A DNA stretch of 33,566 bases, taken from assembly GCA_020851415.1 (NCBI GenBank), contig JADZCU010000070.1:1-33566 (forward strand). The letters run 5' to 3'. Below, one piece after another: positions 1,919-20,376 of the stretch. Below the pieces are notes generated by a model. It saw only the letters and a program-made list of their open reading frames with translations, searched no databases and was not told the DNA's origin. Each line of letters starts with the position of its first letter. Position 1 is the stretch's first letter. A program made the position numbers and the translations under genes. This stretch comes from Candidatus Peregrinibacteria bacterium (GTDB lineage Bacteria > Patescibacteriota > Gracilibacteria > UBA1369).

Positions 1919-1983
1919 AAATTTGGGGTTTGTATTGTTACTATATCATAATTACTCAAGTGCATCAATTTGTATCTGCTTGT

Positions 1984-2004: not shown

Positions 2005-2042
2005 CATTGGGTTTGATCTTTTTCATTTAACTGATTTTCAAC

Positions 2043-3035: not shown

Positions 3036-3069
3036 ATCAAATTACTGTCTGTTATTTATAGGGGGGAAG

Positions 3070-3096
3070 GGGCCGAGCTTACGCTTGGCCCTTTTT
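3070..3096 (+). terminator. Rho-independent terminator after znuA
   Basis: The stem GGGCCGAGC (3070-3078) pairs with GCTTGGCCC (3083-3091), with one G-T wobble and a TTAC loop, followed by TTTTT. It overlaps the last codons of the convergent fur-type gene. No T-run lies on the opposite strand, so it acts in the plus direction only. Confidence 0.8.
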
Positions 3097-3537: not shown

Positions 3538-3658
3538 TCAGTTTGCGTTATAACATTATTTTAGCGCTGAGTGAAGGTTAAAAGGTGGCATACGGCTGGC
3601 GGGTCAGCATTTTCATTTTGAAAATTCTATAAATTGACCTCGGCAAGCCAACTGTGTT

Positions 3659-3688
3659 AATTTCACTCCCTGTTATTAACGTGAAATT
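3659..3688 (+). promoter_or_regulatory. Leader hairpin directly before the 667-aa gene
   Basis: AATTTCAC (3659-3666) and GTGAAATT (3681-3688) form a perfect 8-bp stem with a 14-nt loop, ending two bases before the ATG. A plausible promoter lies just upstream (TTGACC at 3634-3639, 17 nt, TTAATT at 3657-3662). The dyad would therefore overlap the -10 box and the transcription start, and may be an operator rather than an RNA hairpin. Confidence 0.4.
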
Positions 3689-3690
3689 TT

Positions 3691-5694: not shown

Positions 5695-5768
5695 ATGCAG
5701 CATAAATGCCATCCTTTACTGATGTGCCTAAGTGGAATTGGTTTAGTTGTAAAAATCATCAGATAACA

Positions 5769-5800
5769 AAAAGAGTCCCTTAATCAGGGACTCTTTTGTT
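5769..5800. terminator. Bidirectional terminator between the 667-aa gene and pnp
   Basis: AAAAGAGTCCCT (5769-5780) pairs perfectly with AGGGACTCTTTT (5786-5797) around a five-base loop. The A-run and T-run flanks serve as U-tracts on both strands, so it ends both convergent transcripts. Confidence 0.88.
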
Positions 5801-5818
5801 TTCAGTTCATCTGAATAT

Positions 5819-7966
5819 TTATTTCGTATCTGTCGGTGCAGCTGGAGCAGATGTTGGTGCAAGTGTCGCTTTGTGTGAGAGGTTATAACGACCCTGATCA
5901 TCGATCTCGAGAAGTTTTACCTTAAGGGTGTCTCCCACTTTCACCACGTCTTCAACTTTGTTTACCCGAGTTGCTGCGAGCTGTGAGATGTGAACCAATC
6001 CCTCTTTGCCCGGAAGGAACTCTACGAATGCTCCGAATTCCATGATTTTTACAACTTTTGCATCAAAGATTTCTCCGGCTTTTGGAATGTATGTAAGACG
6101 TTTAACCCAATCCAAAGCTTTCTGCCCACTTTCCTGGTCTTTGGCTGTAATTACAACCAGGCCATCTTGTTCGATATCGATCTCAACATCGCATTCTGCT
6201 GTAATCTTTTGAATTGTTTCACCACCTTTACCGATTACCACTTTAATAAGATCAGGGTTGATGACCAAGTTCATGATCATTGGTGCGTATTTGCTGAGCT
6301 GTTTATTTGGCGCGGCGATTGTTTTCTTCATCTCTTCGAGAATGAATACGCGAGCCTGTTTTGCGCGCATCAATGCTTCACGCATAACTTCAACTGTGAG
6401 ACCTTTTACCTTGATATCCATCTGAAGAGCGTTGATACCATCATGTGTACCGGTAACCTTGAAATCCATATCACCGGCGAAATCTTCCATTCCCTGGATA
6501 TCCGTAAGGATTTTGTAACCTTTCGTGATGTCTTTATCGCGGGAGATTAAACCCATGGCGATACCAGCAACCGGCTTTTTAATCGGTACACCGGCGTGCA
6601 TGAGAGAAAGTGTTGATCCACAAACAGAAGCCATTGAACTTGAACCGTTACAACTCATGATTTCTGATACTACCCAGATGGTGTATGGGAACTCTTCTTT
6701 GCTTGGAAGAACTGGAATAAGTGAACGTTCAGCCAAATCACCATGACCAATGTCGCGGCGTGATGGACCACGGAGAGGTTTTACTTCTCCTACTGAGTAT
6801 GGAGGGAAGTTATAGTGATGCATGTAACGCTTGATCACATCTTCATCCATAGTGTCTACGATCTGCGCTGATCCGGGTGAACCGAGTGTAGTGATAGAAA
6901 GAGCCTGCGTTTCACCACGCTGGAAAAGTGCTGAACCGTGCGGACGTGGAAGAATTCCTACTGATGTGCTGATTGGACGTATTTCATCAACTTTGCGTCC
7001 ATCCAGACGTTCTTCTTTCTCCAAAATGTTGTTACGCATGTTCTGCTCAATTGCGTGAAGCAAAGCTCCCTTGAGTGCGCCTGACTTAAATGTTCCAGCT
7101 TCAATCTGTTCTTTATATTTCTCTAAAAGTTTATCTTCAAGAACGTGAATTGTTTCTTTGGTTTCACCTTTCGTTTTACCTTTTACAGTATCCAAATCTG
7201 CCTTAGTAAAAGTTTCGGCAACCGCCTTTTTCACTTCTTCGTTGTCTGCAACGATTGTCATTTCACGATCAGGCTTTTTGTATGCGGCCTTGAAATCTTC
7301 TTGGAGCTGACAGATTTTCTTGATTTCAGCGTGAGCCATATCAAGTGCCTGAAGCATAACTTCTTCAGTTACTTCACTGGCTGCCGCTTCCACCATGGTG
7401 ATAGCTTCCCCAGTACCCGCCACCACTAAATCCAAACGACCGCTTTCTTCCTGTTGGTAAGTTGGATTGATAACCAGTTTTTCCTGGCCGTTTTCATCTT
7501 TCACTAAGCCAACGCGAACCGCACCGATTGGTCCCTGGAAAGGCATACCGGAGATACAGAGCGCTGCTGATGCCGCAATAAGACCTGTTGTAGCAGGGTC
7601 AACTTCCAAATCCGCAGAAAGAACGCTACAGATAATCTGCACGTCATTTACTACACCTTTTGGAAACAATGGGCGGATCGGACGGTCGATCAGACGGGAG
7701 TTTAATACCGCCTTTTCTGAAGGACGACCTTCGCGCTTTACAAAGCGACTGCCTTTAATTTTTCCGGCAGCGTAATATTTTTCTTCGTAGTCGACCATCA
7801 TTGGGAAGAAGTCCGTACCTTCACGTACTCCACCCATCTGGGCGCTGGAAAATACAATTGTATCACCCAGTGATACTGTAACCGCACCGTGCGATTGATT
7901 GGCTAACAGACCTGTCTCAATCGTAAGTTTACGACCGGCAAGATCCATTGAGAATGTTTTATCCAT
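5819..7966 (-). CDS. pnp: Polyribonucleotide nucleotidyltransferase (PNPase)
   Basis: This is the phosphorolytic 3'-5' exoribonuclease of the RNA degradosome. The domain order is canonical: a first RNase PH domain (about 10-220), a helical linker, and a second catalytic RNase PH domain (about 315-530) with the conserved DFAGDMDFKVTGT active-site segment near residue 500. A KH domain (about 555-615) carries the GxxG loop in VIGKGGETIQ, and an S1 domain (about 630-700) follows. The Ala/Pro/Thr-rich tail is probably disordered. At 715 residues the length is normal. It follows rpsO, the classic bacterial order, with a large imperfect hairpin in its leader. Confidence 0.98.
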   Translation of the reverse strand: MDKTFSMDLAGRKLTIETGLLANQSHGAVTVSLGDTIVFSSAQMGGVREGTDFFPMMVDYEEKYYAAGKIKGSRFVKREGRPSEKAVLNSRLIDRPIRPLFPKGVVNDVQIICSVLSADLEVDPATTGLIAASAALCISGMPFQGPIGAVRVGLVKDENGQEKLVINPTYQQEESGRLDLVVAGTGEAITMVEAAASEVTEEVMLQALDMAHAEIKKICQLQEDFKAAYKKPDREMTIVADNEEVKKAVAETFTKADLDTVKGKTKGETKETIHVLEDKLLEKYKEQIEAGTFKSGALKGALLHAIEQNMRNNILEKEERLDGRKVDEIRPISTSVGILPRPHGSALFQRGETQALSITTLGSPGSAQIVDTMDEDVIKRYMHHYNFPPYSVGEVKPLRGPSRRDIGHGDLAERSLIPVLPSKEEFPYTIWVVSEIMSCNGSSSMASVCGSTLSLMHAGVPIKKPVAGIAMGLISRDKDITKGYKILTDIQGMEDFAGDMDFKVTGTHDGINALQMDIKVKGLTVEVMREALMRAKQARVFILEEMKKTIAAPNKQLSKYAPMIMNLVINPDLIKVVIGKGGETIQKITAECDVEIDIEQDGLVVITAKDQESGQKALDWVKRLTYIPKAGEIFDAKVVKIMEFGAFVEFLPGKEGLVHISQLAATRVNKVEDVVKVGDTLKVKLLEIDDQGRYNLSHKATLAPTSAPAAPTDTK

Positions 7967-8001
7967 ATGCTTCTAACAATGGTTAAGATATAATTTCCTT
8001 T

Positions 8002-8103
8002 AACCTTCGAAGCAATGGTCCAAGTGACAAGTTCAAACCTATAACATTATTTATAGATTTAAACCTGTGACTTGTGACGCTGTGCTTTGGTTGGATAAAG
8101 GTT
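8002..8103 (-). promoter_or_regulatory. Long imperfect hairpin in the rpsO-pnp intergenic leader
   Basis: The inner stem CTATAA (8039-8044) pairs with TTATAG (8051-8056); ACAAGT (8027-8032) pairs with ACTTGT (8070-8075); the outer ends ACCTT/AAGGT can also pair. Together they form a roughly 100-nt imperfect stem-loop in the pnp leader. In E. coli a stem-loop in the same intergenic position is cut by RNase III and mediates PNPase autoregulation. A similar role here is inference. Confidence 0.5.
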
Positions 8104-8111
8104 TTTTTAAT

Positions 8112-8375
8112 TTATTTGCGGAGCTGGAGCTTTTCTGTGAGCTCTTCGTAGCTTTCCTTGGAATTCAAACGCAAATATTGGAGTAATTTGCGGCGCTTAC
8201 CTACCATCATCAATAATCCACGACGTGAGTGATTATCTTTTGGATGCTCTTCTAAATGTTTAGAAAGCTGGTTGATTCTCTCTGTGAGAATCGCAACCTG
8301 AACCTGTGGGGATCCGGTGTCTTTTGGGTGTACTGCGTATTTACCAATAAGTGTTTTTTTCTGCGTGCGTTTCAT
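8112..8375 (-). CDS. rpsO: 30S ribosomal protein S15
   Basis: S15 binds the central domain of 16S rRNA during small-subunit assembly. The 87-residue product from the ATG at 8375 (MKRTQKKTL) has the usual length and the conserved core [20 protein letters not shown] followed by LLQYLR. The frame is open further upstream, but that extension is not S15-like, so the internal ATG is preferred. No Shine-Dalgarno sequence precedes it. It is the first gene of the rpsO-pnp unit and divergent from the membrane protein at 8479. Confidence 0.97.
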
Positions 8376-8478
8376 TGCTTTAGGGCTTAAAAAGTTCGAA
8401 CTGGAGTTTATCAAATCTGCTGCCCCTTGGCAAGCCATTCTTTATCATTTATGATGGGCAGAGACCATTTTTTAGAGT

Positions 8479-9408
8479 ATGAATCACCGACAAATTATTG
8501 CCCAGGCTTGGGAGTTTACGCAGAACAATAAAAAAATGATCTATTGGTATGCGTTTTTTCCCTCTCTTTTGACGACTTTGGCAGGTGTGATTTATTTAAT
8601 GTATCAGTATTTTGCGTTTCGCAGCTCGCCACTCTTCGAAAACTGGAGCCAAAGTTTTACTATGGTTGCCCTGCGGACTGTTGTTGACGTGGTGAGTCAA
8701 AATATTTCCAGTACTATTCCACTTCTCGTTATAGCGGTGGTCATTATTATACTTTATTTAATAATCCCATCTTTGTGTGACGGCGCCATCATTCAGTTGA
8801 TTGCACGAAAGAAAAACGGCCAGGATGTACGTACCCGACATGGTATTCGTTATGGAATGATGAGCTTCCTGCCCCTGTTTGAGTATTCCTGGGTTATTCG
8901 TACATTTAGTTTGGTTTCTTTGCTGGGAAACGCTTCTTTTATTATGAGAAACCTGGGTATGACTGCATTTTGGATCGCTTTTCCGGTTTTTGTGATTATT
9001 GCGATTGTTGGGATTATTATGACCGTTCTTTTTACTTACGCTGAGTACTTCATTGTTATTGATGATAGTAAAGTACTTGAGTCCATAGCCAAAAGCTCAA
9101 AACTTGTGGTTGAGCATCTGGAAGAGACTCTTTTGCTTTCAATTCTGATGCTGATTATAAGCGTGAGAATTTTGATTCAGCTTTTGTTTGTTCTGCTTAT
9201 CCCGTTTGCCATTATCGGTTCAATTTACCTGTTTGCTTCTTCTATCCCATGGATTGGCTTTTTGGTTGGTTTTCTTCTGGGATCCGGACTTTTATATTTG
9301 GCTTCATATTTGAGTGCCACTATTCATGTATTTGCGGCTACCGTCTGGACTTTTAGTTTTTTGCATCTGACCAGCGAACCAGTGGTGAGCGCCAGAGAGA
9401 AAATCTAG
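8479..9408 (+). CDS. Polytopic membrane protein, 309 aa
   Basis: A conserved-hypothetical style integral membrane protein. After about 20 hydrophilic residues there are roughly six hydrophobic stretches: about 22-47, 78-106, 140-155 (weak), 161-188, 213-250 and 255-295. Short charged loops include the basic KKNGQDVRTRHG segment near 113-124. The pattern recalls the membrane region of GdpD-type or DUF975-like proteins, but no catalytic motif is visible and I leave it unnamed. It ends 8 bp from the convergent PAS gene, with no terminator visible between them. Confidence 0.85.
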   Translation: MNHRQIIAQAWEFTQNNKKMIYWYAFFPSLLTTLAGVIYLMYQYFAFRSSPLFENWSQSFTMVALRTVVDVVSQNISSTIPLLVIAVVIIILYLIIPSLCDGAIIQLIARKKNGQDVRTRHGIRYGMMSFLPLFEYSWVIRTFSLVSLLGNASFIMRNLGMTAFWIAFPVFVIIAIVGIIMTVLFTYAEYFIVIDDSKVLESIAKSSKLVVEHLEETLLLSILMLIISVRILIQLLFVLLIPFAIIGSIYLFASSIPWIGFLVGFLLGSGLLYLASYLSATIHVFAATVWTFSFLHLTSEPVVSAREKI

Positions 9409-9416
9409 TAAAGGTT

Positions 9417-10394
9417 TTAGAATTTGTCGATGTAGGCCATTTCATCTCCCAATAACCATACCGGTGTCCCCTCTTGATTGCGCAGGGCATCTTCATTTTC
9501 TTTATAACCTTTTAATGTTGGGCCGCTTTGTCCAGATTTTTTCTTTTTTGTATTGGTTTCTGTTTCATGAACTTCTTTGTCTTCAGTCTCGGTTTTTGCT
9601 TCATGCTCAACTGTGCTTTCATGAGACTCGTTTTCAATTTGTACCGACTCAGTTTTTACCGAATCGTGCTCATTTTCACTTTGGGTTTCTGTTGAACTGT
9701 CTGATTGCTTTGCCTGAATGATATCCTCATCGTGATGTGTTTCAGTTTCATTATTCTCTTCTTCATGTTTTACCGTTTTGCTTGTTGTTTTGGTGGATGA
9801 AGGCTTTATTTTTGGCGGCAAAGCTTTTGGCGGTTCGTCTGATGGCTCCAACATTTCCTGTGTGATTTCCTTGGCTGTGATGGCAATACGGGTTACTTTA
9901 TCGTTTTCCTTTAATGGATGGAGAGATGCCATGTTGGCAGTGTAGTCGCCGCCGCTTGTAAGTACTCTATAAGGACCGACCATTGAAGATTCTTCTCCAC
10001 TTTCTATTACGTCTCCAAAAGCGGCAAAAATAGTCGCTAAATCTTCCGGGTGAATATAACTAAAGAAGAGCTGCTCCTCCAGTTCGTCCGGAGGGAGTCC
10101 GGTTATTTTTTCATAATCCCAGCTGGCGAAATTGATTTTTCCATCGATTCCGATAACAACTACGGCGTCATCTTCATTGCCCAGTTCGTCTCTGATAGCT
10201 TTTTCTTCATTGTAGTTTGAGTGAACCATAACTGAATCCAAGACGTTTGCTTTGGTTTCGTGGCTTACTTCTGATGAATGGTTTTGTGTGTTCAGGAAAA
10301 ACATGAGTGATGTCATGCTTACCGTAAAAATTCCGAGCGCGACCACCAGTATGTTTTTATTTGAACGTAAGAATTGCAACATAGGTTTGTACAT
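9417..10394 (-). CDS. Membrane-anchored PAS-domain protein with charged low-complexity tail
   Basis: One N-terminal membrane helix (about 13-33) is followed by a linker and a PAS fold (about 70-175) with recognisable PAS features: VVVIGIDGKINFASWDYEKI, then the ITGLPPDEL and FSYIHPEDL segments. Next comes a 120-residue Glu/Thr/His/Ser-rich low-complexity region (about 195-290) and a short conserved-looking C terminus (about 295-325). There is no kinase, cyclase, GGDEF or HTH output domain. It may act as a sensor or scaffold through partners. The start could be the first Met or Met5; neither has a Shine-Dalgarno sequence. It is divergent from the cyclic-nucleotide-binding gene. Confidence 0.85.
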   Translation of the reverse strand: MYKPMLQFLRSNKNILVVALGIFTVSMTSLMFFLNTQNHSSEVSHETKANVLDSVMVHSNYNEEKAIRDELGNEDDAVVVIGIDGKINFASWDYEKITGLPPDELEEQLFFSYIHPEDLATIFAAFGDVIESGEESSMVGPYRVLTSGGDYTANMASLHPLKENDKVTRIAITAKEITQEMLEPSDEPPKALPPKIKPSSTKTTSKTVKHEEENNETETHHDEDIIQAKQSDSSTETQSENEHDSVKTESVQIENESHESTVEHEAKTETEDKEVHETETNTKKKKSGQSGPTLKGYKENEDALRNQEGTPVWLLGDEMAYIDKF

Positions 10395-10532
10395 TTATAT
10401 ATTTATTTTTATTGCTACGGAGACATTTCAGTAATGTTTTTCACCCCTTTATTTTCGTAGCATCGTACTATAATAAACTATTTCTGCATTTGTGTCAAAT
10501 ATTATTACAGATAATGGCCTGTGGATTGGATA

Positions 10533-10561
10533 TTGGTTTTTTAAGATAATTATGGTAGAAT
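10533..10561 (+). promoter_or_regulatory. Promoter of the CNB gene
   Basis: TTGGTT (10533-10538), a 17-nt spacer and TAGAAT (10556-10561) lie about 35 nt before the ATG at 10596. The spacing fits a sigma70-type promoter. Confidence 0.5.
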
Positions 10562-10595
10562 AATAAATAGAGATTAACTCATAAAAACAAAATAT

Positions 10596-11051
10596 ATGGC
10601 ATTTTCTCCAGATGACATTTCAACAATCACTAAAATTCTTCAGCAATTAGAGCTTTTTAAGAATTTAAATGAACAGGATCACGCAGAAATCATCAAGCAT
10701 ATCACTTTGGAATACTTTCCAAAGGATCATGTAGTTTTCCATGAAGGTGATGCCGGCGACTGCTTCTATATTATCAAGCATGGTATGGCTCGTGTTTTTC
10801 ACGAGGCGCCAAACCAGGTTGAAGAAAAAGAGGTTGCAATGTTCGGTGATGGTGATTTTTTTGGAGAAATGGCTCTTATTTCAGACAAACCGCGAAATGC
10901 TACGGTAAAAACCGTGGAAGAAAGCGAGATTTTTAAACTAAAAAAAGATGACTTTATTCAACTGGTAAGTTCTGACCCTAATATGGCCAGTCGTATCAGT
11001 ACCGAATTTTTGAATCGTCTTAAAACCAACATGCGGGAAGAGCAAAATTAG
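10596..11051 (+). CDS. Cyclic nucleotide-binding (CNB/CRP-type) domain protein
   Basis: This is a stand-alone cNMP-binding beta-barrel domain. The phosphate-binding cassette is well conserved: GDFFGEMALI (about 85-94) followed by PRNATV (about 98-103), with the Glu and Arg that contact cyclic nucleotide. The 151-residue length ends shortly after the barrel's C-terminal helix, so there is no DNA-binding HTH as in CRP and no fused effector. It may regulate a partner protein by binding cAMP. A CHASE2-class III cyclase is encoded at 27962-30010, making cAMP the likely ligand. The gene has its own promoter-like sequence and may be co-transcribed with the following membrane gene. Confidence 0.92.
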   Translation: MAFSPDDISTITKILQQLELFKNLNEQDHAEIIKHITLEYFPKDHVVFHEGDAGDCFYIIKHGMARVFHEAPNQVEEKEVAMFGDGDFFGEMALISDKPRNATVKTVEESEIFKLKKDDFIQLVSSDPNMASRISTEFLNRLKTNMREEQN

Positions 11052-11083
11052 TTTAGAATTGATTTGTTTTGTTAGTGCCGATT

Positions 11084-11665
11084 ATGATTTTTTTAAACTT
11101 ACTTCTTGCTCATCTCCTGGCCGATTTTGTGCTGCAACCGCATAAACTTGTAGCCTGGAAATTTAAAAGCTGGAAAGGGACCGCCGCGCACGCTTCCGTC
11201 CATTTTGCCGCGAACTTACTGGTTTTCCTGCCGTTCCTGAATGACATCAGAGTTTGGCTTGTTTTTGTGGCAGTTTCCGCTACGCACTTTGCCATAGACT
11301 CCATAAAGATTGAAAAGGAAAAACATGGCCGACATTTCTTGGCTTATTTCTGTGCAGATCAAATGGCACACTTGGCTGTCATCAGCCTTGTCGCCGGCTT
11401 GTTCCTTGGTTTTCCACTGGAGTGGAATATTGTGTTTTGGGGTAACAGTCTTGGAGAAACGTTAACTGTTTTGGGTATAAATCTGCTGATTTTACTTACA
11501 TATGTGGTGGAAATATTGATATTCCAGGTAAAGCGAATGAAAAACCGCTCTCTTTTGTTTGAACCAAATTATAAATCGATGCTGAAACGAGCTTTTCTTT
11601 TCAGTGCCTTATATGTAATTTTTCTGGTTTTTGCGGTATACCATGCAGCGGCTCTGGGAGCATAG
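11084..11665 (+). CDS. DUF3307-family membrane protein
   Basis: The N-terminal segment LLAHLLADFVLQPHKL, followed by Trp/Lys-rich and HASVHFAANLL segments, matches the DUF3307 family pattern of small polytopic membrane proteins of unknown function. About five hydrophobic segments are visible (near 2-15, 38-72, 90-112, 120-142 and 165-190). I take the ATG at 11084; an in-frame TTG at 11069 would add five residues. The gene follows the CNB gene by about 30 nt and may share its transcript. Confidence 0.85.
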   Translation: MIFLNLLLAHLLADFVLQPHKLVAWKFKSWKGTAAHASVHFAANLLVFLPFLNDIRVWLVFVAVSATHFAIDSIKIEKEKHGRHFLAYFCADQMAHLAVISLVAGLFLGFPLEWNIVFWGNSLGETLTVLGINLLILLTYVVEILIFQVKRMKNRSLLFEPNYKSMLKRAFLFSALYVIFLVFAVYHAAALGA

Positions 11666-11743
11666 TTTGCTTTGATGACTGTCTGAAGTGAGCTTTTTTG
11701 TTGTGAATCACGACCAAAGGATTATTCAATCGACACCCGTTAC

Positions 11744-11771
11744 TTGTTATTTCTTTGGGCTGTAGTACAAT
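11744..11771 (+). promoter_or_regulatory. Promoter of leuS
   Basis: TTGTTA (11744-11749), a 16-nt spacer and TACAAT (11766-11771) lie 22 nt before the leuS ATG, implying a very short leader. Confidence 0.45.
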
Positions 11772-11793
11772 AAAGCCCGATTTTGACTTTGTT

Positions 11794-14277
11794 ATGCCTT
11801 TATACAACGCCGTAGAAAACGAGAAAAAGTGGCAAAAAATCTGGGAAGATACAAAATTACATCGTACGAATCTGGAAGATTTTTCCAAACCCAAATACTA
11901 TAATTTGGTGATGTTTCCCTATCCTTCGGGAGACAAACTTCATATCGGTCACTGGTACAACTATGCTCCGGCAGACTCCTGGGGAAGGTATATGAAGATG
12001 AAAGGTTTTAATGTTTTTGAACCGCAGGGTTTTGATAGTTTTGGGTTACCGGCTGAGAATTACGCAATTAAAACCGGTGTGCATCCTACTGTGAGTATTT
12101 CGCAGAACGTAGGATATATGCGAGAACAGTTGCATAAAATGGGGACGATGTATGACTGGGACAAGTCTGTGGTAACTTCCGAGCCTGACTATTATCAATG
12201 GACGCAATGGGTGTTTTTGCAGCTCTATAAAAAGGGTTTGGCTTACAGAAAAAATGCTCCGGTGAACTGGTGTCCTTCTTGCCAGACGGTGCTTGCCAAC
12301 GAACAGGTTGTTGACGGACGTTGTGAGCGCTGCAAACATGAAGTTACGAAGCGTGATTTAACACAGTGGTTTTTTAAGATCCGCGATTATGCGGAAAGAC
12401 TTTTGAATTTTGAAGGTTTGGATTGGCCAGAGAGAACGAAGTTGATGCAACAAAACTGGATTGGAAAGAGTACCGGTAGCCAGGTAGTGTTTGAACTTTG
12501 TAATGAAAAAGGTGAAAAATCCGGAGAAAAAGTGACAGTGTTTACCACGAGAATTGATACTTTGTTTGGTGCGACCTATATGGTTCTGGCGCCTGAACAT
12601 GCATTGGTTGAAAAAATCACCACTGATAAGCACAAAAAAAATGTTGCTGAGTATATTGAGAAAACACGCAAGGAAACAGACATTGCTCGAAGTGCCGAGG
12701 ATAGAGAAAAAACCGGTGTAGAGACCGGGGCGTTTGCGATTAATCCCGCCAATGGTGAAATTATTCCGGTCTGGATTGCCGATTATGTTTTGGTGACTTA
12801 TGGGACCGGCGCGGTTATGGCGGTGGCAGCGCATGATGAACGGGACAGCGCTTTTGCAAAGAAGTACGGGTTGCCGATTCAGGAAGTGGTAGCGCCGACG
12901 GGAGGAAGTTTGGGGGCCGTCACCAAAAACGAAGCGACGGGTGGTGGCGCAGAGAAAGCTGATCAGAATCCTCAATCTCAAAGTGATGGTCCGTTTACCG
13001 AGTATGGGATTTTAATAAATTCCGGTGAGTTTACTGGTTTAACTTCAGAAGAAGCGCGAAAAAAAATTACTGAGTGGTTAGAAGAGAAAAAGTCTGCGAA
13101 TTTTACGGTAAATTATAAACTTCGTGATTGGCTGGTGAGCCGTCAGCGTTATTGGGGGGCGCCGATTCCGATTGTTTATTGTGACAAGTGCGGAGAGGTT
13201 GCAGTTCCAGAAAAAGATTTGCCGGTACTGCTTCCGAAGGATGTTGATTTTACGCCGAAAGGTGATGGTAAGTCTCCGTTGAATACTGTGGAATCTTTTG
13301 TTCATACGAAATGCCCGGAATGCGGTGGGGTTGCGAAACGTGAAGTGGATACGATGGATACTTTTGTGGATTCGAGCTGGTACTTTTTGCGTTATCCTTC
13401 CGCTAAAATGAGCGACAGACCTTTTGATACCGGGATGACGAAGAACTGGTTGCCGGTGGATATGTATATCGGCGGCCCTGAGCACGCTTGTATGCATTTG
13501 TTGTATGCCCGCTTTATCAATATGGTTTTGCATGACCTTGGACATATTGATTTTGAGGAACCGTTTAAGCGCTTGATTCACCAGGGTATGATTACCAAGG
13601 ACGGCGCGAAGATGTCGAAGTCTAAAGGAAATGTGGTTTCGCCTGATCAGTTTGTGGAGAAATATGGAAGCGATACGTTCCGTTTGTATTTGATGTTTAT
13701 GGGACCTTTCAGTGAAGGCGGTGATTGGAACGATAAAGGTATTACCGGTATCGCGAGATTTTTGGAGAGATTTTATCAGTTGATCCACGTGAATGAGTTG
13801 GTTGGTGATAAAGCTGCACTGCAGAGATTGCTGCATAAAACCATTAAGAAAGTTACGGCGGATATTGAAGTGTTTCATTTTAATACTGCAATAGCGGCGC
13901 TGATGGAGTTTGTGAATAATGCTCTGAAAATTGGCATGGATGATGAGACCCGAAAGGCGGCTACTTTGTTGATCGCGCCGCTTGCCCCCCATCTGGCTGA
14001 GGAACTTTGGGAGAAAGTTGGCGGCGAAGGTTCTGTGTTTGAAAATTCATGGCCAGTGTTTGATCCGGCTTTAATTGTTGAAGATTCTGTTCAACTTGGT
14101 GTTCAGGTGAACGGTAAGTTGCGAGCGCAGGTTACGGTTGATGTGGGTGCTGATAAAGATACAGTCCTTGCCGCTGCGAAAGCTGAGCCGAATGTTGCCA
14201 AATATTTGGAAGGTAAAAAGTTGGTGAAAGAGATTTATGTTCCGAATAAATTGGTGAGCTTTGTGGTTGCAGTTTAG
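11794..14277 (+). CDS. leuS: Leucyl-tRNA synthetase
   Basis: This class Ia aminoacyl-tRNA synthetase charges tRNA-Leu with leucine. The HIGH motif is exact (residues 50-53, LHIGHWYN) and the KMSKS loop is present (about 606-610, GAKMSKSKGN). A zinc-ribbon-like region (CPSCQ...CERC, about 160-185) and the CP1 editing domain follow, the latter with FTTRIDTLFGATYM and the GTGAVMAVAAHDERD segment carrying the editing Asp. The C-terminal anticodon-binding and LeuRS-specific domains are complete. The frame is open upstream to a TTG at 11755, but the family N terminus and a promoter at 11744-11771 favour the ATG at 11794, giving 827 residues. Confidence 0.98.
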   Translation: MPLYNAVENEKKWQKIWEDTKLHRTNLEDFSKPKYYNLVMFPYPSGDKLHIGHWYNYAPADSWGRYMKMKGFNVFEPQGFDSFGLPAENYAIKTGVHPTVSISQNVGYMREQLHKMGTMYDWDKSVVTSEPDYYQWTQWVFLQLYKKGLAYRKNAPVNWCPSCQTVLANEQVVDGRCERCKHEVTKRDLTQWFFKIRDYAERLLNFEGLDWPERTKLMQQNWIGKSTGSQVVFELCNEKGEKSGEKVTVFTTRIDTLFGATYMVLAPEHALVEKITTDKHKKNVAEYIEKTRKETDIARSAEDREKTGVETGAFAINPANGEIIPVWIADYVLVTYGTGAVMAVAAHDERDSAFAKKYGLPIQEVVAPTGGSLGAVTKNEATGGGAEKADQNPQSQSDGPFTEYGILINSGEFTGLTSEEARKKITEWLEEKKSANFTVNYKLRDWLVSRQRYWGAPIPIVYCDKCGEVAVPEKDLPVLLPKDVDFTPKGDGKSPLNTVESFVHTKCPECGGVAKREVDTMDTFVDSSWYFLRYPSAKMSDRPFDTGMTKNWLPVDMYIGGPEHACMHLLYARFINMVLHDLGHIDFEEPFKRLIHQGMITKDGAKMSKSKGNVVSPDQFVEKYGSDTFRLYLMFMGPFSEGGDWNDKGITGIARFLERFYQLIHVNELVGDKAALQRLLHKTIKKVTADIEVFHFNTAIAALMEFVNNALKIGMDDETRKAATLLIAPLAPHLAEELWEKVGGEGSVFENSWPVFDPALIVEDSVQLGVQVNGKLRAQVTVDVGADKDTVLAAAKAEPNVAKYLEGKKLVKEIYVPNKLVSFVVAV

Positions 14278-14440: not shown

Positions 14441-14806
14441 TCATTTTACACTCCAGGGTCTCGAAGCAGCTTTTATTGTCTCGTGGGTCACTGTCAAAGA
14501 TTTAATTTCACAATTATTTAAGGAAAAATCTGGTTCAATATTTGAAAATCTACATTCAACAAACTTACATTTGCTAAAGACTATACCAATAAGCTGAGAT
14601 TCTCTGAAAAGCACTCTTTCAAAAATACAATTACTAAAAACTGAGCTGCAAAAATCACCCCCGTAAATCTCACAATCCATAAATTTAATATCTTTTATAT
14701 CCAGATCCATTAGTGTTTCATTTCTCTTACAATGAAATGTCCCATTAATGTTTTTTGAGGATTTTAAAAGATTCAAAAAATCATTCTCATTTTTTTGATT
14801 TTGCAT
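14441..14806 (-). CDS. Pentapeptide-repeat-like small protein, 121 aa
   Basis: From about residue 40 to 95 the sequence shows a five-residue periodicity with Phe/Leu/Ile at the centre and small or Cys residues between (CEIYGGDFCSSVFSNC, then SQLIGIVFSKCKFVECRF). This is typical of pentapeptide-repeat right-handed quadrilateral beta-helices. Those proteins have varied roles, including gyrase protection, but none can be assigned here. The ATG at 14806 is preferred to an upstream in-frame TTG. The region is AT-rich like the adjacent island, whose left edge it borders, so it may belong to the accessory DNA. Confidence 0.65.
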   Translation of the reverse strand: MQNQKNENDFLNLLKSSKNINGTFHCKRNETLMDLDIKDIKFMDCEIYGGDFCSSVFSNCIFERVLFRESQLIGIVFSKCKFVECRFSNIEPDFSLNNCEIKSLTVTHETIKAASRPWSVK

Positions 14807-14876
14807 AAACAAAAAAATCAAAGTTAGAATTGTATTATTACCATGCAGGTATGTGATTCGCAGTATAAAGGTTTTT

Positions 14877-14906
14877 GTGTGCTTTTTAAAGTTTTCAGTA
14901 TATAAT
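14877..14906 (+). repeat. Left copy of 30-bp direct repeat (pilin promoter)
   Basis: This 30-bp stretch is identical at 29 of 30 positions to 19617-19646, in the same orientation. Both contain TTTTCAGTATATAAT; the right copy is the promoter of the intact pilin operon. The two copies bracket the biosynthetic island. Confidence 0.9.
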
Positions 14907-15012
14907 CAAGGATGTTGTTGCCTGCATGGATCCTTGTGATTTTGAAGATGGGAAGAATGTGAAGCTTGCTGAATTTACTCTGGATGATTCGATGAGTCTA
15001 TCTATTTATTAA
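14907..15012 (+). pseudogene. Internally deleted remnant of a pseudopilin gene
   Basis: Directly after the duplicated promoter, 14907-14944 aligns without gaps to 19926-19963 (five mismatches in 38), and 14945-15000 continues as 20114-20169 of the intact pilin gene. Relative to the intact gene, 19647-19925 is missing, including the start codon and prepilin signal. A further 150 bp is missing between two GTGATTTTG copies (19955 and 20105), in frame. The remaining frame still reads DF-EDGKNVKLAEFTLDDSMS, but it lacks a start and a signal, so it is a decayed copy. It ends against the stop codon of the HAD gene. Confidence 0.82.
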
Positions 15013-15652
15013 TTAGATTCATGATCTCCTCTGAATTTATATCTCTCAAAGATGAGATAATTTTTTTAGCTTGGGGAAAATTATAATTACACCCCACGGT
15101 TTTATCCGGGCAGATAACACATATCGCACCGGAACTAACAGCTGCTTTATAGCCACCTACTGAATCTTCAATAATAACTGTTTCCGACGGAGATGCATTC
15201 ATTTTTTTCATGGTTATTAAAAAGATTTCAGGATGAGGTTTTCTTTTTCCCAATTCGGTATCGGATTGCAAAACATCAAAAGTCTGACCAAATAGAATAT
15301 CGACGATAAGCTTTATTGATTCTATTCTTGAAGATGACGCAACAGCCAATTTAAATCCATTTTTCCTTAGTTCTTTGACCAGAGAAATTGCACCGGGCTT
15401 TGCTTTTAAGTTATTTTTAATAAGTTTTTCATAAATTTCTTTTTTTCTGTTTCTTACATGCTCTACGTTGTAATGAAGTTTTTTCAGAGTAGCCCACTCA
15501 TATGCATCTATTGATGATTTTACCCAATATTCTTTCCATTCTTCCCAGCTTAATTTTAGCCCTATCTCGTTAAAAGCTTTTTTGTAAGCCAAAAACTGCA
15601 ATGGTTGTGAATCTACCAATGTACCATCCAAATCAAAAATAACGGACTTCAT
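15002..15652 (-). CDS. HAD-superfamily phosphatase, beta-phosphoglucomutase-like
   Basis: This is a haloacid dehalogenase-type phosphohydrolase or phosphomutase with all four motifs intact: DxDGT with nucleophile Asp7 and Asp9 (FDLDGTLVDS), the Ser of motif II (ASSSR, 105-109), the motif III Lys (GKRKPHPE, 135-142), and motif IV (IIEDSVGG, 160-167). The helical cap between motifs I and II (about 15-85) marks subfamily IA, as in beta-PGM and small-metabolite phosphatases. It is the last gene of the island's minus-strand operon, 12 nt after the SDR gene. It probably dephosphorylates a pathway intermediate or product; the exact substrate is unknown. Confidence 0.9.
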   Translation of the reverse strand: MKSVIFDLDGTLVDSQPLQFLAYKKAFNEIGLKLSWEEWKEYWVKSSIDAYEWATLKKLHYNVEHVRNRKKEIYEKLIKNNLKAKPGAISLVKELRKNGFKLAVASSSRIESIKLIVDILFGQTFDVLQSDTELGKRKPHPEIFLITMKKMNASPSETVIIEDSVGGYKAAVSSGAICVICPDKTVGCNYNFPQAKKIISSLRDINSEEIMNLINK

Positions 15653-15664
15653 AATAATTATTAT

Positions 15665-16369
15665 TTACCAGGTTCGCGACATGCTATCGATACGAATTTC
15701 CTGAAGTTCGATATTCTTATGTGCAGTGATTGCAAACATAACAACTTCTGCTACTTCTTCTGGCATTAATGCACCTATTCTCATGCCTGGTTTCTTATTA
15801 TTGAAATACGTATCAACTCTACCAGGAGATATACATGTAACTCTGACATTGTCTTTTCTAACTGCTAATCCGAAAGCTTTTGACATCATCAGAACTCCTC
15901 CTTTTGTTGCACAATAGGCTGTCGCGTCAGGGAAAGCGACATTATCGCAATCTGAACTAATATTGATTATATTAAGAAAATTTTTCCCATTTTTAATTTT
16001 TATAACTTCCCTACTTAAACTAAACATAGCCTTCACGTTAACATTAAACATTTCGTCTAACATTTCGTCAGATAAATTAGCAGGATCACCAAATCTCCCA
16101 ATGCCTGCCGAATTAACGAGTGCAAAAAGTTCTTTTTTATTCTTTACAGCATCTATAATTTTTTCCTGAATTGAACTGTCTGTGATATCACCGTACACAT
16201 TTATGACTTTAACCTTATGTTCTTTACAAATCTTGGTTGTAGCGTCTAAATTAGCGGAATTTCTTCCGGATAGAATTAAATTGAATCCGTTTTTAGCCGC
16301 TTGAATAGCAATGGCTTTACCAATGCCTGAAGATGCACCCGTGATAATAATGTACTTGTTATTCATCAT
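15665..16369 (-). CDS. Short-chain dehydrogenase/reductase (classical SDR)
   Basis: This is an NAD(P)-dependent oxidoreductase with an intact Rossmann fingerprint TGASSGIG (10-17) and VNSAGIG (85-91). The catalytic residues are complete: Ser138/139, Tyr152 and Lys156 in AYCATK. The NxxxG... SGRN segment after beta2 (34-37) resembles NADP-preferring SDRs, but cofactor choice is uncertain. Its ATG overlaps the stop of the upstream unknown gene in an ATGA arrangement, showing translational coupling. In the island context it would reduce or oxidise an intermediate carrying a carbonyl or hydroxyl group; in the coformycin-type pathways an SDR reduces the ring ketone. Confidence 0.93.
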   Translation of the reverse strand: MMNNKYIIITGASSGIGKAIAIQAAKNGFNLILSGRNSANLDATTKICKEHKVKVINVYGDITDSSIQEKIIDAVKNKKELFALVNSAGIGRFGDPANLSDEMLDEMFNVNVKAMFSLSREVIKIKNGKNFLNIINISSDCDNVAFPDATAYCATKGGVLMMSKAFGLAVRKDNVRVTCISPGRVDTYFNNKKPGMRIGALMPEEVAEVVMFAITAHKNIELQEIRIDSMSRTW

Positions 16370-16986
16370 GTGACTAATTTTAAGGGGACGATTTTATTAA
16401 TTTCATGAATTAATTTTATATTTAAAGGCCTTTTGGTACTATCGCACGATGTGACTAAATTATTATACTCACTTTTGTACTTAGAAATTATTTGTAACCA
16501 ATATTGGTATATATTTTCTTTCAACTGAAGATAATCATTAATATTTTCTGCATTAAGACAATAAGCTCTACCCCATCCATTCAATCTTAATTGCATTACA
16601 TTTGTATCACTATAACCAAATTTTTTTGCTACATTGAAACGGTATGCTAACCCTAGTGTACAAATTATTTCTAAATAGTAAGATTTATCAATATTGTTGA
16701 TATCTTGATATACAATATTTTGCACAAGAAAATTAAATATTGTTCCGTCTCCTAATACATAAATATGTCTTTTAAAACCGGTAATTTCTGTAAATAGTTC
16801 ATCAAAAATATTCATGGCAAACAATATCTTGCGAATTTTTGTGAGTATGAGTTTTTTTGATTCGCTATCGTCTATTTTTATATTAGATAAAGGACATAAG
16901 TCTTTTAGATTCATTTCATCTCCATTGTTTTGCAATAGATCTATTCTTAGCAGTGGACTAGTCTTTGATAATAGTTGAGTTTGCAT
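16366..16986 (-). CDS. Unknown protein of the biosynthetic island, 206 aa
   Basis: I do not recognise this family. It is soluble and appears mostly helical, with a central segment GDGTIFNFLVQNIVYQD (about 76-92) and a segment with Tyr/Trp/Arg/Cys residues (LRLNGWGRAYCLN, about 134-146) that looks like a functional core. There is no signal, membrane span, Walker motif or obvious metal site. It starts one base after the HisG-like stop codon and overlaps the SDR start by four bases, so it is produced with these enzymes and is very likely a pathway component or partner subunit. A HisZ-like regulatory role is conceivable, but I see no histidyl-tRNA synthetase motifs. Confidence 0.85.
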   Translation of the reverse strand: MQTQLLSKTSPLLRIDLLQNNGDEMNLKDLCPLSNIKIDDSESKKLILTKIRKILFAMNIFDELFTEITGFKRHIYVLGDGTIFNFLVQNIVYQDINNIDKSYYLEIICTLGLAYRFNVAKKFGYSDTNVMQLRLNGWGRAYCLNAENINDYLQLKENIYQYWLQIISKYKSEYNNLVTSCDSTKRPLNIKLIHEINKIVPLKLVT

Positions 16987-16987
16987 T

Positions 16988-17596
16988 TTACAGGTCTAGC
17001 TTATTCATTCGCTTCAGATTGAGATTTTTGTCATTTTTTTTAATTAATGACAAAGATAAATTGCAGTGGATAATATCTAGTTCTATCAGGTTGTTGCGAG
17101 CTATTGTTTCTCCAGACTCGACACAATCTATGCCAAATGGGAAAAAACTGGGGATGGTTGCTTCAATTGAACCACTAAGTTTGTAAATATTTCTATTGTT
17201 AGCTGAGCTTTTTTGTTCTAAATAGTTTTGTGTAATAAACGGATAGGATGAGACAATTGTATCATTTTCGCTAATATTCTTCACGGAATCGGTAATTAAA
17301 CTCATTCTTGTATTTATCCAGTTAAATTTTTTCAATTTATCAAAGCTAACTTTGTGTTGCAGTTCATGTTCTAATATCCATTCGTCTGGAACAATACCTA
17401 AATCAACTTTCTCATTGAGAATAAGTGAACAAATATCTGATGGCTTTAAAAGAAAGAAAATATAGTCTTCTGACTCAAAAAATAATTTTCTTTCTTGTTC
17501 AATGTTAAAGACATTATCTTTGACGTTGTTTTTAACAATTGACAGACTATTATTATGAAATCTTCCTTTTGGGAGAGCTATTTTAAGCTTAGACAT
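16988..17596 (-). CDS. HisG-like (ATP phosphoribosyltransferase family) enzyme
   Basis: This protein shows the short-form HisG fold signature: LPKGR near the N terminus, DLGIVPDEW (about 65-73), then GSIEA (142-146) and the PRPP-binding loop ESGETIARNN (160-169), corresponding to the E-T/S-G-x-T-L-x-x-N motif of HisG. The phosphoribosyl-binding loop is intact. It is divergent from true HisG, for example PSFFPFGID where housekeeping HisG has P-GLAD. I see no other his genes, so a pathway-specific phosphoribosyltransferase is more likely than histidine biosynthesis. The preferred ATG at 17596 overlaps the purM stop (ATGTCTAA); an upstream in-frame ATG lies at 17608. HisG homologues PenA/CofA begin coformycin-type nucleoside biosynthesis in actinomycetes. 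Confidence 0.85.
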   Translation of the reverse strand: MSKLKIALPKGRFHNNSLSIVKNNVKDNVFNIEQERKLFFESEDYIFFLLKPSDICSLILNEKVDLGIVPDEWILEHELQHKVSFDKLKKFNWINTRMSLITDSVKNISENDTIVSSYPFITQNYLEQKSSANNRNIYKLSGSIEATIPSFFPFGIDCVESGETIARNNLIELDIIHCNLSLSLIKKNDKNLNLKRMNKLDL

Positions 17597-18770
17597 GCTT
17601 TTTCTCATATTGGAGGATTTTTTTACTCATCGGATCTGTGATTTCAATTTCATTTGTATCTTCCCGCGAAGACCTCTCAACACGTCCTATTACTTTTGCC
17701 TCAATATCAAAACTCGCAGCTATTTTAAGAATATCTTCCACAGCCTCTTTAACACAAGATATTATCAATCTACACCCCATATTAAATGTTTTGTATAATT
17801 CATGAGGTTCAATATCTGAATTCTCGTAAACAAATCTAAAAAAGGCGCCAGGATCAATCATATCATCCATTATATATTTCACATCCTTTCCAAATCTTAT
17901 TGGTTTTGTTAATCCTCCTCCTGTGCAATTAAAAATCCCCTTTATTCCATTTTTATCATTTTCTAATAACTCTTTTATAAGAGGGAGATAAGAACGAGTT
18001 GGGGAGAGCATAGCCGCTCCCAGTGTCATGTCCGTACCGGGAATTTGGGTTTTTAAATTAAATTTGCCTGAATATGCACTGTCTGAAATATTTTTATCAT
18101 AAGTTTCAGGATATTTTTCTTTGTACGAGGAATCAAGCATTGCGTGGGCTAGCAGGGTAAATCCATTACTGCTTACCCCAGAGTTATATTCATTTTCATA
18201 TTTCGTTTTTCCATACGATGCAAATCCTACCAATATGTCTCCGTCCGCTGTTTGACTTGCATCTACTATATCCTCTATTTTCATTCTCGCAGAAGCATCA
18301 GAATTTACAACAATTGTACGAACATTGTTCCCTGTGTCAGCGGTTTCCCCGCCGCACATATCAATTTTCACATAACCAGCAAGTTTCTCTATAGCTTCTT
18401 TGTAACCATCGATAATTTTTGAAATTGCTTCGTCAGAAATAACCATTGGATTTCTATCAATGCTGTTTGTTAATTGAAATCTCTCTGTTGCACCTACGGC
18501 TGCCATATCATCGATATTCATAACAAGGCTATCATGAGCAATGCCTTTCCACACATCAGTGGGAAACCCTTCTTTTGTGGCCATGTATGCTATATTCGCC
18601 TTGCTTCCAGCTCCATCAGTATGTTTTAGATAACAATACTTATCATCATCAGCAATATCAGGAGATATGAAGCAGAAAGCTCCAGGGAAAATTCCTTTAT
18701 CTAATTTTTTAGTTGCTTCATGAACAGCGTCTTTGTCAGCATCGGATCCTAATTCTTTGTAGGTTAGCAT
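17589..18770 (-). CDS. purM: PurM: phosphoribosylformylglycinamidine cyclo-ligase (AIR synthetase), long type
   Basis: This is a PurM-superfamily ATP-dependent cyclase. The N terminus has KGIFPGAFCFISPD and the nucleotide-binding HTDGAGSK (50-57), followed by MNIDDMAAVGA (84-94), CGGETAD (139-145) and, in the C-terminal domain, NCTGGGLTKP. At 393 residues it matches the longer PurM type seen in Bacteroidetes rather than the roughly 345-residue common form. Canonically it closes the imidazole ring of AIR in purine synthesis. Here it is the promoter-proximal gene of a five-gene coupled operon without other pur genes. It may supply AIR or perform a related ring closure on a pathway-specific amide; which one is inference. 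Confidence 0.92.
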   Translation of the reverse strand: MLTYKELGSDADKDAVHEATKKLDKGIFPGAFCFISPDIADDDKYCYLKHTDGAGSKANIAYMATKEGFPTDVWKGIAHDSLVMNIDDMAAVGATERFQLTNSIDRNPMVISDEAISKIIDGYKEAIEKLAGYVKIDMCGGETADTGNNVRTIVVNSDASARMKIEDIVDASQTADGDILVGFASYGKTKYENEYNSGVSSNGFTLLAHAMLDSSYKEKYPETYDKNISDSAYSGKFNLKTQIPGTDMTLGAAMLSPTRSYLPLIKELLENDKNGIKGIFNCTGGGLTKPIRFGKDVKYIMDDMIDPGAFFRFVYENSDIEPHELYKTFNMGCRLIISCVKEAVEDILKIAASFDIEAKVIGRVERSSREDTNEIEITDPMSKKILQYEKKHV

Positions 18771-18817
18771 TTTAAAAATAATTTAAAGTTTATATGGGAA
18801 ATTTAACAATTATTTAC

Positions 18818-18862
18818 TTGAAGAGCCCGTCCAATCTAGGATAGATTAACGTATGTTGTCAA
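18818..18862. promoter_or_regulatory. Divergent overlapping promoters with a shared -10 dyad
   Basis: Toward the kinase gene: TTGAAG (18818-18823), 18 nt, TAGATT (18842-18847). Toward the purM operon on the minus strand: TTGACA (18862-18857), 18 nt, TAGATT (18838-18833). The two -10 boxes lie head to head and form a perfect dyad AATCTA-GGA-TAGATT (18833-18847). A protein bound there would control both transcripts at once. The calls rest on motif match and spacing only. Confidence 0.5.
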
Positions 18863-18884
18863 CGAAACTATGAAGTAATGCCCA

Positions 18885-19517
18885 ATGAGTTTTATTTCTG
18901 AATACTCTGCCTTTGAATGTATCAGTAAAATATGTCTAGATGAATCACCAGATTTACTACTAATAGGTGGGCCAACTGGCAGCGGCAAAAGCACTTTATC
19001 GCTTAGAATATCAAATGAATTGCAAATTTCACGATTATCCCTTGATAATTATTTTAAGGATGAGGGAGAAATGGAGATTGTTTTACCTCAACTTAATTTA
19101 AGACAATGGGATGCTCCGGATTGTTACCACTGGGATCTCCTGATAGAAAATCTGCAGGATATTTTTAGGAAAAAAATAGCAAAAATACCTGTTTTTTCAC
19201 ATGAAAACTCAAGGCAAAATGGCTGGGTTGATTTCACGATTCAAAAAACACCTTTGATTATTGAAGGACTTTACGCTTTGAGTCCAGAAATATTAGGAAT
19301 AGCTGAATCTATGAGGCTTAAAGTTCTTTCTGTTTTTTTAGATATTCCTGAGGAAGTAAGATGGCAGAGGAAATACAATAGGGATGTATTGGAAAGAAAT
19401 GAAAATCCGTCGACTTTGCGAATTTGGTTTGATCATATTATTAAACCTGCTGAAAAAAAGTGGATTAATCAGCAGTCGACAATGGCTGATTTAATAGTAA
19501 CTCATGATTTCAAGTGA
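18885..19517 (+). CDS. Uridine kinase-like P-loop kinase
   Basis: This protein belongs to the uridine kinase/phosphoribulokinase group, which phosphorylates nucleosides or related small molecules with ATP. The Walker A motif GGPTGSGKST (28-37) is intact. The substrate-proximal SLDNYFKDE (52-60) matches the family S-x-D-x-Y/F motif. WDAPDCYHWDLL, IIEGLYAL (125-132) and the Arg-rich lid RDVLERNENP (166-175) follow the Udk order. At 210 residues the size is typical. It is transcribed away from the purM-hisG-like operon and sits inside the same direct-repeat brackets, so it probably serves the same pathway (precursor salvage, product activation or self-protection). The exact substrate is unknown. 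Confidence 0.87.
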   Translation: MSFISEYSAFECISKICLDESPDLLLIGGPTGSGKSTLSLRISNELQISRLSLDNYFKDEGEMEIVLPQLNLRQWDAPDCYHWDLLIENLQDIFRKKIAKIPVFSHENSRQNGWVDFTIQKTPLIIEGLYALSPEILGIAESMRLKVLSVFLDIPEEVRWQRKYNRDVLERNENPSTLRIWFDHIIKPAEKKWINQQSTMADLIVTHDFK

Positions 19518-19616
19518 TTAGGGAACGCGCGTGCATGAGAGGTGTTTGTGTTGTTCCATCATTGAAAAAAGTGTTTGTTCGGAGGATTCGCTCGATGACC
19601 AAAAACATTTATATTG

Positions 19617-19646
19617 GTGTGCTTTTTGAAGTTTTCAGTATATAAT
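19617..19646 (+). repeat. Right copy of 30-bp direct repeat: pilin operon promoter
   Basis: This is the partner of 14877-14906. It ends in TATAAT (19641-19646), 25 nt before the TTG start of the first pilin gene, so it is the likely -10 of the operon. No good -35 hexamer is visible. The stretch between the kinase stop (19517) and this repeat shows nothing else. Confidence 0.8.
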
Positions 19647-19671
19647 ATCCGAAGACTTTAAATTCATAGTC

Positions 19672-20376
19672 TTGAAACGAAAAACGCAAAATAAAATTCA
19701 GCCCGGCTTTTGTTTTTCACATTTTAGATCGGGTTTTACGCTTGCAGAGTTTATAGTGGTTATTGCCATTCTTTTGCTGCTTTTTACGCTTTCGATGCGT
19801 GGGCTGGTGAATTCGCAACGTAGTTTTTTGTTTAATAATACAGCTGAAAGAATTATTCAGATGGTTCGCGAATCCCGCAGTTTGGCTGTTACCGGGAAAG
19901 CTCAACCTGATTATACCGATGCGGACAAGGATGTTGTTGCCTCCACAGATCCGGGTGATTTTGTTACTCCGGCGCATTATGGCGTGCATTTTGATACCGC
20001 TTCAAGTCCGCAAAAACTGGTGATGTTTTTTGATGTGAATTTGGGCGAAAGCTCCGATCAAAATGAGGGTGTGTATGATCCGCCAAGCGCTATTGCCGGG
20101 ATTGGTGATTTTGAAGATGGCAAGGACGTGAAGCTGGCTGAATTTACCCTGGATGATTCGATGAGTTTTATTTTGGCTCCTGCCGGAACGAATACTGTTA
20201 TGTTTAGTCCGATTTTTGCAGATACAAGTTTTGATGCTCCCCTGGCCGGTACAAAAATTTTTATTTTTGGCGTTGAGGATACGGGTGGGACTATTGACCG
20301 CAAGCGTTGTTATAAAATCCACATAGTGGCAGGTGTACCAGAAGTGGCTGACAGTACAGATGATTCGTCATGTTAA
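19672..20376 (+). CDS. GspH/FimT-like type IV pseudopilin
   Basis: This is a minor pilin or pseudopilin of a type IV pilus-like machine. A 20-residue basic leader precedes the prepilin peptidase site SG|FTLAEF, with Glu at +5 and a hydrophobic helix IVVIAILLLLFTLSM, so it is a canonical class III signal. The 210-residue globular part is Asp/Gly-rich and probably beta. The start is a TTG at 19672, preceded by a TATAAT box at 19641-19646; no ATG gives a complete leader. It is the first gene of a four-gene pseudopilin run with 20-42 nt gaps. A truncated relic of the same gene lies at 14907-15012. Confidence 0.88.
   Translation: MKRKTQNKIQPGFCFSHFRSGFTLAEFIVVIAILLLLFTLSMRGLVNSQRSFLFNNTAERIIQMVRESRSLAVTGKAQPDYTDADKDVVASTDPGDFVTPAHYGVHFDTASSPQKLVMFFDVNLGESSDQNEGVYDPPSAIAGIGDFEDGKDVKLAEFTLDDSMSFILAPAGTNTVMFSPIFADTSFDAPLAGTKIFIFGVEDTGGTIDRKRCYKIHIVAGVPEVADSTDDSSC

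Follow-up and report, generated by a model that had tools for sequence, protein, structure and literature searches.

A laterally inserted island in a Candidatus Peregrinibacteria genome as a candidate miniature cluster for the biosynthesis of a nucleotide-derived metabolite

The stretch of DNA analyzed here comprises 33,566 nucleotides of contig JADZCU010000070.1 from a Candidatus Peregrinibacteria bacterium and is called the window in the following. At positions 15002-19517 it carries an island of six genes, among them genes for a HisG-like phosphoribosyltransferase, a PurM-like enzyme and an unknown protein (UNK). The island is a lateral insertion, and the sequences make it probable that it is a miniature cluster, acquired laterally, for the biosynthesis of a specialized metabolite derived from a nucleotide. 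The cluster would belong to a family that has not been described so far. The island genes are:

15002-15652, minus strand: HAD-superfamily phosphatase P0001, beta-phosphoglucomutase (beta-PGM)-like subfamily (Pfam HAD_2, 8e-29; TIGR02009, 1.6e-30)
15665-16369, minus strand: short-chain dehydrogenase (SDR) P0002 (Pfam adh_short, 7e-42; alignment)
16366-16986, minus strand: UNK P0003, 206 residues (21-member alignment; structure models)
16988-17608, minus strand: HisG-like phosphoribosyltransferase P0004, short form (Pfam HisG, 5.5e-17; motif table; trees)
17589-18770, minus strand: PurM-like enzyme P0005 of the aminoimidazole ribonucleotide (AIR) synthase family (Pfam AIRS, 1.6e-10; AIRS_C, 1.8e-8)
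18885-19517, plus strand: divergent Udk-like P-loop kinase P0006, within the inserted segment (Pfam PRK/uridine kinase, 2.7e-17)

From the HAD to the PurM-like gene, the junctions on the minus strand are a 12 nt gap, a 4 nt overlap, a 1 nt gap and a 20 nt overlap, and the PurM-like and Udk-like genes form a divergent pair 114 nt apart. All six reading frames are intact and their catalytic motifs are present. Direct reading revealed DLDGT in the HAD phosphatase, TGASSGIG and S-YxxxK in the SDR, the 5-phosphoribosyl pyrophosphate (PRPP) loop CVESGET in the HisG-like protein, HTDGAGSK, NIDDMAAVG and CGGETAD in the PurM-like protein and GPTGSGKS in the Udk-like kinase. The five packed minus-strand genes with a divergent Udk-like gene, as described in a first-pass annotation, were confirmed in position, family and motif by Pfam, NCBIfam and this reading.

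The HisG-like protein and the missing histidine pathway

P0004 clears the cut-off of the NCBIfam model hisG (TIGR00070) narrowly (79.2 vs. 75.75 bits) and carries PDEW and DCVESG where housekeeping HisG has GKD and DVVETG. The E-W signature is shared by all 15 HisG proteins of the clusters described below, which also have in every case a cysteine ahead of (V/I)ETG or VESG; in the motif table, housekeeping copies display for example K-D-V or R-D-L and none displays E-W. In phylogenetic trees, a check which the first-pass annotation had proposed, P0004 falls outside housekeeping HisG and within one clade made up of the 15 cluster copies only (support 99/98, and 100/98 once long branches were removed), where it is sister to the HisG of Leptospira (97/94). 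Most other genomes hosting such a cluster contain a second, housekeeping HisG, and a cluster-type HisG at high score is present in only 2 of 296 Streptomyces genomes.

In the host of the window, P0004 is the sole HisG. The contigs of this genome (1.42 Mb, 81 contigs, 95% complete; relatives from its phylum mostly have 0.7-1.5 Mb) were searched for named families, and HisI (PF01502) gave no match and HisA/HisF (PF00977) only a sub-threshold one, using searches that were positive in 13 and 14 of 14 control genomes. Elsewhere in the genome a second, ordinary PurM (L014) is encoded, as well as PurC on contig C30. Because of these two genes, P0005 is probably redundant for AIR synthesis. Taken together, the sole HisG, the absence of HisI and HisA/F and the second PurM and PurC indicate that histidine synthesis does not account for the island and that purine synthesis probably does not either. 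This bears out the earlier view that ordinary biosynthesis is a poor explanation. With respect to complete his and pur pathways, a point raised at the same time, the histidine route is the one lacking, and of the purine route another PurM and PurC were found.

A core of UNK, HisG and MazG in other bacteria

Three plasmids carry related clusters. On the Leptospira interrogans plasmid (L011) the order is MazG-FomB-like-GT4-PurM-HisG-SDR-GT8-UNK, with an UNK relative of 193 residues, and the window proteins are 43% (PurM), 36% (HisG), 43% (SDR) and 29% (UNK) identical to their counterparts by blastp. The Streptomyces anulatus plasmid (L018) displays PurM-MazG-HisG-UNK-AKR-APH-HAD, AKR being an aldo/keto reductase, and the Nocardia plasmid (L012) UNK-MazG-HisG. 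When 84,980 species genomes were scanned with the UNK alignment, 17 further loci came up, which belong to Paenibacillus, Clostridia, Pseudomonas, Streptomyces, Nocardia, Curtobacterium, Chloroflexi and a metagenome-assembled genome labeled Cyanobacteria. For the 21 loci (the window, the three plasmids and the 17 loci of the scan), neighbors were identified by profile searches and tallied from the resulting table. HisG adjoins UNK in 15, the window included and always as the EW type, MazG is found in 16, PurM in 15, an AKR in nine and an SDR in seven. Without HisG are L021 at a contig edge, the truncated L035, L019, which is a near copy of L020 minus HisG, as well as L030, L033 and L024, the last of which also has a masked stretch.

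The conserved core is therefore UNK, HisG and MazG together with PurM and a reductase, and the Udk-like kinase is local to the window. Since the linkage is conserved across phyla, the observation made in the first-pass annotation is real and stronger than stated there. Neither of the two outcomes named there as contradicting it was obtained, as P0004 does not group with housekeeping HisG and the linkage persists in other phyla. The proposed set of six, however, is not itself conserved: four of the genes recur together, the Udk-like kinase was seen only here, and MazG, common to 16 of the 21 loci, is absent from the island. Based on these comparisons, the clusters most likely make up one family, not described so far, that spans at least five phyla. 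A search of the open-access literature gave no description of a cluster of HisG, MazG and AIR synthase.

P0003 has no match in Pfam, NCBIfam or the PDB sequences and, by its alignment, defines a new protein family. The family motif is Y-R-F-x2-A-x-K-F...Q-x-R-x-N-x-W-G-R, and in all 21 members Y76, Y115, F117, K122, F123, Q132, R134, N136, W138, G139 and Y174 (window numbering) are invariant. Structure models of the window and the Streptomyces protein, with predicted local distance difference test (pLDDT) values of 82.7 and 91.7, predict a helical protein with a winged-helix-like core, in which the conserved motif would sit on the wing hairpin. Two fold searches of these models with Foldseek gave nothing significant, the best weak matches being MarR/PadR winged helix-turn-helix proteins at an E value of 0.14 or higher. 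A short HisG normally depends on a partner such as HisZ. We infer that UNK either serves the short HisG as such a partner or catalyzes the next step, with a regulator as the alternative.

The partner enzymes are more variable. P0005 misses the NCBIfam purM cut-off (108.8 vs. 236), and the PurM proteins of the clusters split into three types, of which that of the window groups with Bacteroides AIR synthase. P0002 carries the cluster-specific motif PGRVDTYFNNKKPGMR, common to the cluster SDRs of Leptospira, Paenibacillus, Pseudomonas and L035; in the alignment it reads PGRVDT(Y/F)FNxK(K/R/S)PG(M/D)R in the window, Leptospira, L035, three Paenibacillus and the Pseudomonas sequences. In the Streptomyces, Chloroflexi and Curtobacterium clusters an AKR occupies the position of the SDR, and this replacement suggests a ketone reduction. 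The kinases vary by lineage, being Udk-like in the window, FomB-like in Leptospira and Paenibacillus and of the APH type in Streptomyces and Chloroflexi. Other clusters furthermore contain MATE and ABC exporters, an aminotransferase, a GMC oxidoreductase, an amino acid:acyl carrier protein (ACP) ligase and a carrier protein. The varying kinases and the exporters would resemble self-protection of the antibiotic type.

Some of the loci are of interest in their own right. The Nocardia plasmid encodes at 1173-13232 a nucleoside hydrolase, FolP, an epimerase, UNK, MazG, HisG, a fructose-bisphosphatase (FBPase)-like protein, an aldolase and PurN, and is a divergent version within the same pathway family. 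In Paenibacillus (L020, 15395-17881) the cluster extends to genes for a nucleotidyltransferase (NTP_transf_5), for an amino acid:ACP ligase and for a carrier protein, which suggests an aminoacylated product. In Chloroflexi (L028, 2-4727) two PurM genes, a transketolase and a fructose-bisphosphate aldolase adjoin the core.

Lateral insertion of the island

The island has a G+C content of 33% compared to 43% in the remaining window, and it is flanked by two copies of one segment:

14874-14997, no strand: left boundary scar, a decayed direct duplicate of 19614-20166 with internal deletions (repeat families D1, D4 and D5, 87-94% identity)
19614-20166, no strand: right-hand copy of the target segment that was duplicated, and right end of the insertion, containing the pilin promoter/upstream region and the 5' part of the pilin gene

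The empty site is seen in L116 and L118, two same-family genomes in which the pilin gene comes directly after leuS with nothing in between. In L116 the match to leuS runs to 5625 and that to the pilin gene begins at 5650; L118 has the identical order. The UNK gene is found in none of the 352 other genomes of the class (1 of 353 with the host) and in none of 58 other relatives. The low G+C content, the flanking duplicate, the empty sites and the restriction of UNK to a single genome of the class are the reasons why the island is regarded as imported.

For the UNK, SDR and HAD genes the nearest relative is L035, with 69-73% protein identity (69% for HAD). The ratios of nonsynonymous to synonymous substitutions (dN/dS) between both are 0.16 for UNK, 0.08 for the SDR and 0.16 for the HAD phosphatase. 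These values reveal purifying selection, and therefore the three genes have been maintained. L035 itself is a truncated UNK-SDR-HAD-NUDIX cassette between two repeat copies (CATCCTCCATCAT and flanks; 838 and 3237), hinting at cassette-like mobility, and its contig may be mis-binned as Cyanobacteria.

A defence system was considered and rejected, as PADLOC gave no match for the island core and the match of the Udk-like kinase to mads_8 covers the P-loop stretch only. A viral origin was likewise rejected. Scans of IMG/VR with HisG, PurM and UNK gave no relative, and a 40% PurM match in a record labeled as phage lies in Bacteroides-like chromosomal DNA surrounded by purC-, prfA- and lpxC-like genes.

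Outside the island, a pentapeptide-repeat protein is encoded between leuS and the left scar (14441-14821), which weakly resembles HalA, an effector of the Hailong system (4.8e-8, well short of the cut-off). Furthermore, the window of this very small genome encodes a CHASE2-nucleotide cyclase and a protein with a cyclic nucleotide monophosphate (cNMP)-binding domain (27962-30010 and 10596-11051), which suggest cyclic-nucleotide signaling.

Possible pathway, alternatives and known systems

A pathway can be proposed from the enzyme families. The HisG-like enzyme would join the 5-phosphoribosyl group of PRPP onto a purine nucleotide, and a MazG-type pyrophosphohydrolase, encoded within the cluster elsewhere and possibly at another locus in the host of the window, would trim the triphosphate. 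UNK may assist the short HisG as its partner or perform the next rearrangement. The PurM-like enzyme would then activate an amide oxygen with ATP and close the ring, the SDR (the AKR in other lineages) would reduce a ketone and the HAD phosphatase would remove a phosphate, whereas the kinase, Udk-like here and FomB- or APH-like elsewhere, would add one, plausibly for self-protection.

Several observations weigh against such a specialized metabolite. MazG is not part of the island and only one weak MazG is encoded elsewhere in the genome, the island lacks an exporter, and the UNK loci L024, L030 and L033 have no adjoining HisG. The winged-helix-like fold of UNK could also indicate a regulator. 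The three separate PurM types imply that PurM may have been recruited repeatedly, and, with HisI and HisA missing, the host has no known enzyme for the exact coformycin-type route through ring opening and an Amadori rearrangement.

The alternatives differ in how well they account for the data. A chance clustering of ordinary histidine, purine or nucleoside salvage genes is barely credible: every enzyme family is indeed known from primary metabolism and P0004 passes as HisG in NCBIfam, but the host has no histidine pathway and a second PurM, P0004 lies outside the housekeeping clade and the linkage is kept across phyla. A product that stays inside the cell, i.e., a cofactor, a signal or a modified nucleotide, would agree with the missing exporter, with the nucleotide cyclase and cNMP-binding protein of the window and with the fact that HisG and MazG alone would yield phosphoribosyl-AMP. 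The patchy lateral distribution and plasmid location, the self-resistance-type kinases and exporters of other clusters and the lack of a PADLOC match in the core make this quite unlikely. The six intact frames with their catalytic motifs and the purifying selection on three genes also speak against an import that no longer functions and is in decay, a piece of a cluster whose MazG and exporters are gone; we regard it as highly unlikely, even though the island is smaller than other clusters, its left edge is decayed and L035 is a truncated version.

The closest competitor is a cluster of the pentostatin/coformycin type. There, the key enzymes are the HisG homologue PenA, the SDR PenB, which catalyzes the last step, and the SAICAR synthetase homologue PenC, whose role is unclear (PMC12648386). 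In the adechlorin cluster the HisG homologues AdeC and AdeL failed to complement a hisG mutant of E. coli (PMC13055916). A survey of Streptomyces furthermore provided an uncharacterized locus of the PenA-PenB-PenC type (HisG-SDR-SAICAR synthetase; L067, 178-2566, Streptomyces-group genome G649). If P0004 were a PenA, P0002 a PenB and the PurM-like enzyme took the place of PenC, a 1,3-diazepine (ring-expanded purine) nucleoside would result. The enzyme classes are identical, and the HisG of L067 has ADW, sharing the tryptophan of the E-W motif. The approximately unbiased (AU) test does not reject a joint clade of this protein and the HisGs of the clusters (p-AU 0.099, with one PenA-type row), and one with actinobacterial housekeeping HisGs is rejected (p 0.012). 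PurM enzymes activate an amide oxygen with ATP, which would fit the ring closure, and it is plausible, by analogy, that PurM replaces PurC for this step in coformycin-like chemistry. On the other side, the PenA-type protein is placed outside the cluster HisG clade, and P0002 is just 21% identical to the PenB-type SDR of L067, which lacks the cluster SDR motif. A SAICAR-synthetase-like gene is absent from the island, none is annotated in L011 or L018, and the host has neither HisI nor HisA. True membership in the pentostatin/coformycin type is thus unlikely, if still worth serious weight. The PenABC-like logic put forward in the first-pass annotation is thus supported in part: the enzyme outline and the distinct HisG hold, and the exchange of PurC for PurM would be plausible.

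Returning to the specialized metabolite as the preferred explanation, a bolder version is a real possibility that we hold only tentatively. The sequences may point to a new class of purine-derived metabolite, made by an EW-type HisG, UNK, MazG, a PurM-type cyclase and an SDR or AKR, moving across phyla on plasmids and islands and perhaps acting on a host or on competitors. Its carrier here would be a member of a small-genome, Patescibacteria-like phylum, which is rarely credited with producing such compounds. If the preferred explanation is right, EW-type HisG proteins and the UNK family represent a sequence handle for clusters that annotation files as histidine or purine genes, and the clusters in Streptomyces and other culturable bacteria allow a direct search for the product. 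The island would also be a test case for a HisG-derived pathway in a host without histidine pathway and for specialized metabolism in an ultra-small bacterium.

In comparison with known systems, P0004 resembles the housekeeping short HisG of the HisG-HisZ type in family, length, PRPP loop and its pass of TIGR00070, and differs by the EW and CVETG-like signatures, its own clade and the absence of HisZ, HisI and HisA partners from the island. P0005 shares about 40% identity and the conserved ATP-site motifs with Bacteroides-type AIR synthase, yet it comes on top of the PurM that the genome already has, and it is linked to HisG, UNK and SDR. The Leptospira and Paenibacillus kinases match the fosfomycin self-resistance kinase FomB (NF000361, E values of 1e-23 to 1e-24), far below its cut-off, whereas the kinase of the window is Udk-like. 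With the PenABC, CofA-C and AdeC-AdeA clusters, the island shares a non-housekeeping HisG homologue, an SDR and an enzyme recruited from purine biosynthesis. In contrast to them, it has a PurM family enzyme instead of the SAICAR synthetase and a short HisG in a clade of its own, and the cluster family contains UNK and MazG in its core, another SDR subfamily and a spread across several phyla. Therefore, the cluster family should not be classed as PenABC; by analogy, its pathway probably resembles pentostatin/coformycin assembly in outline, as a family of its own.

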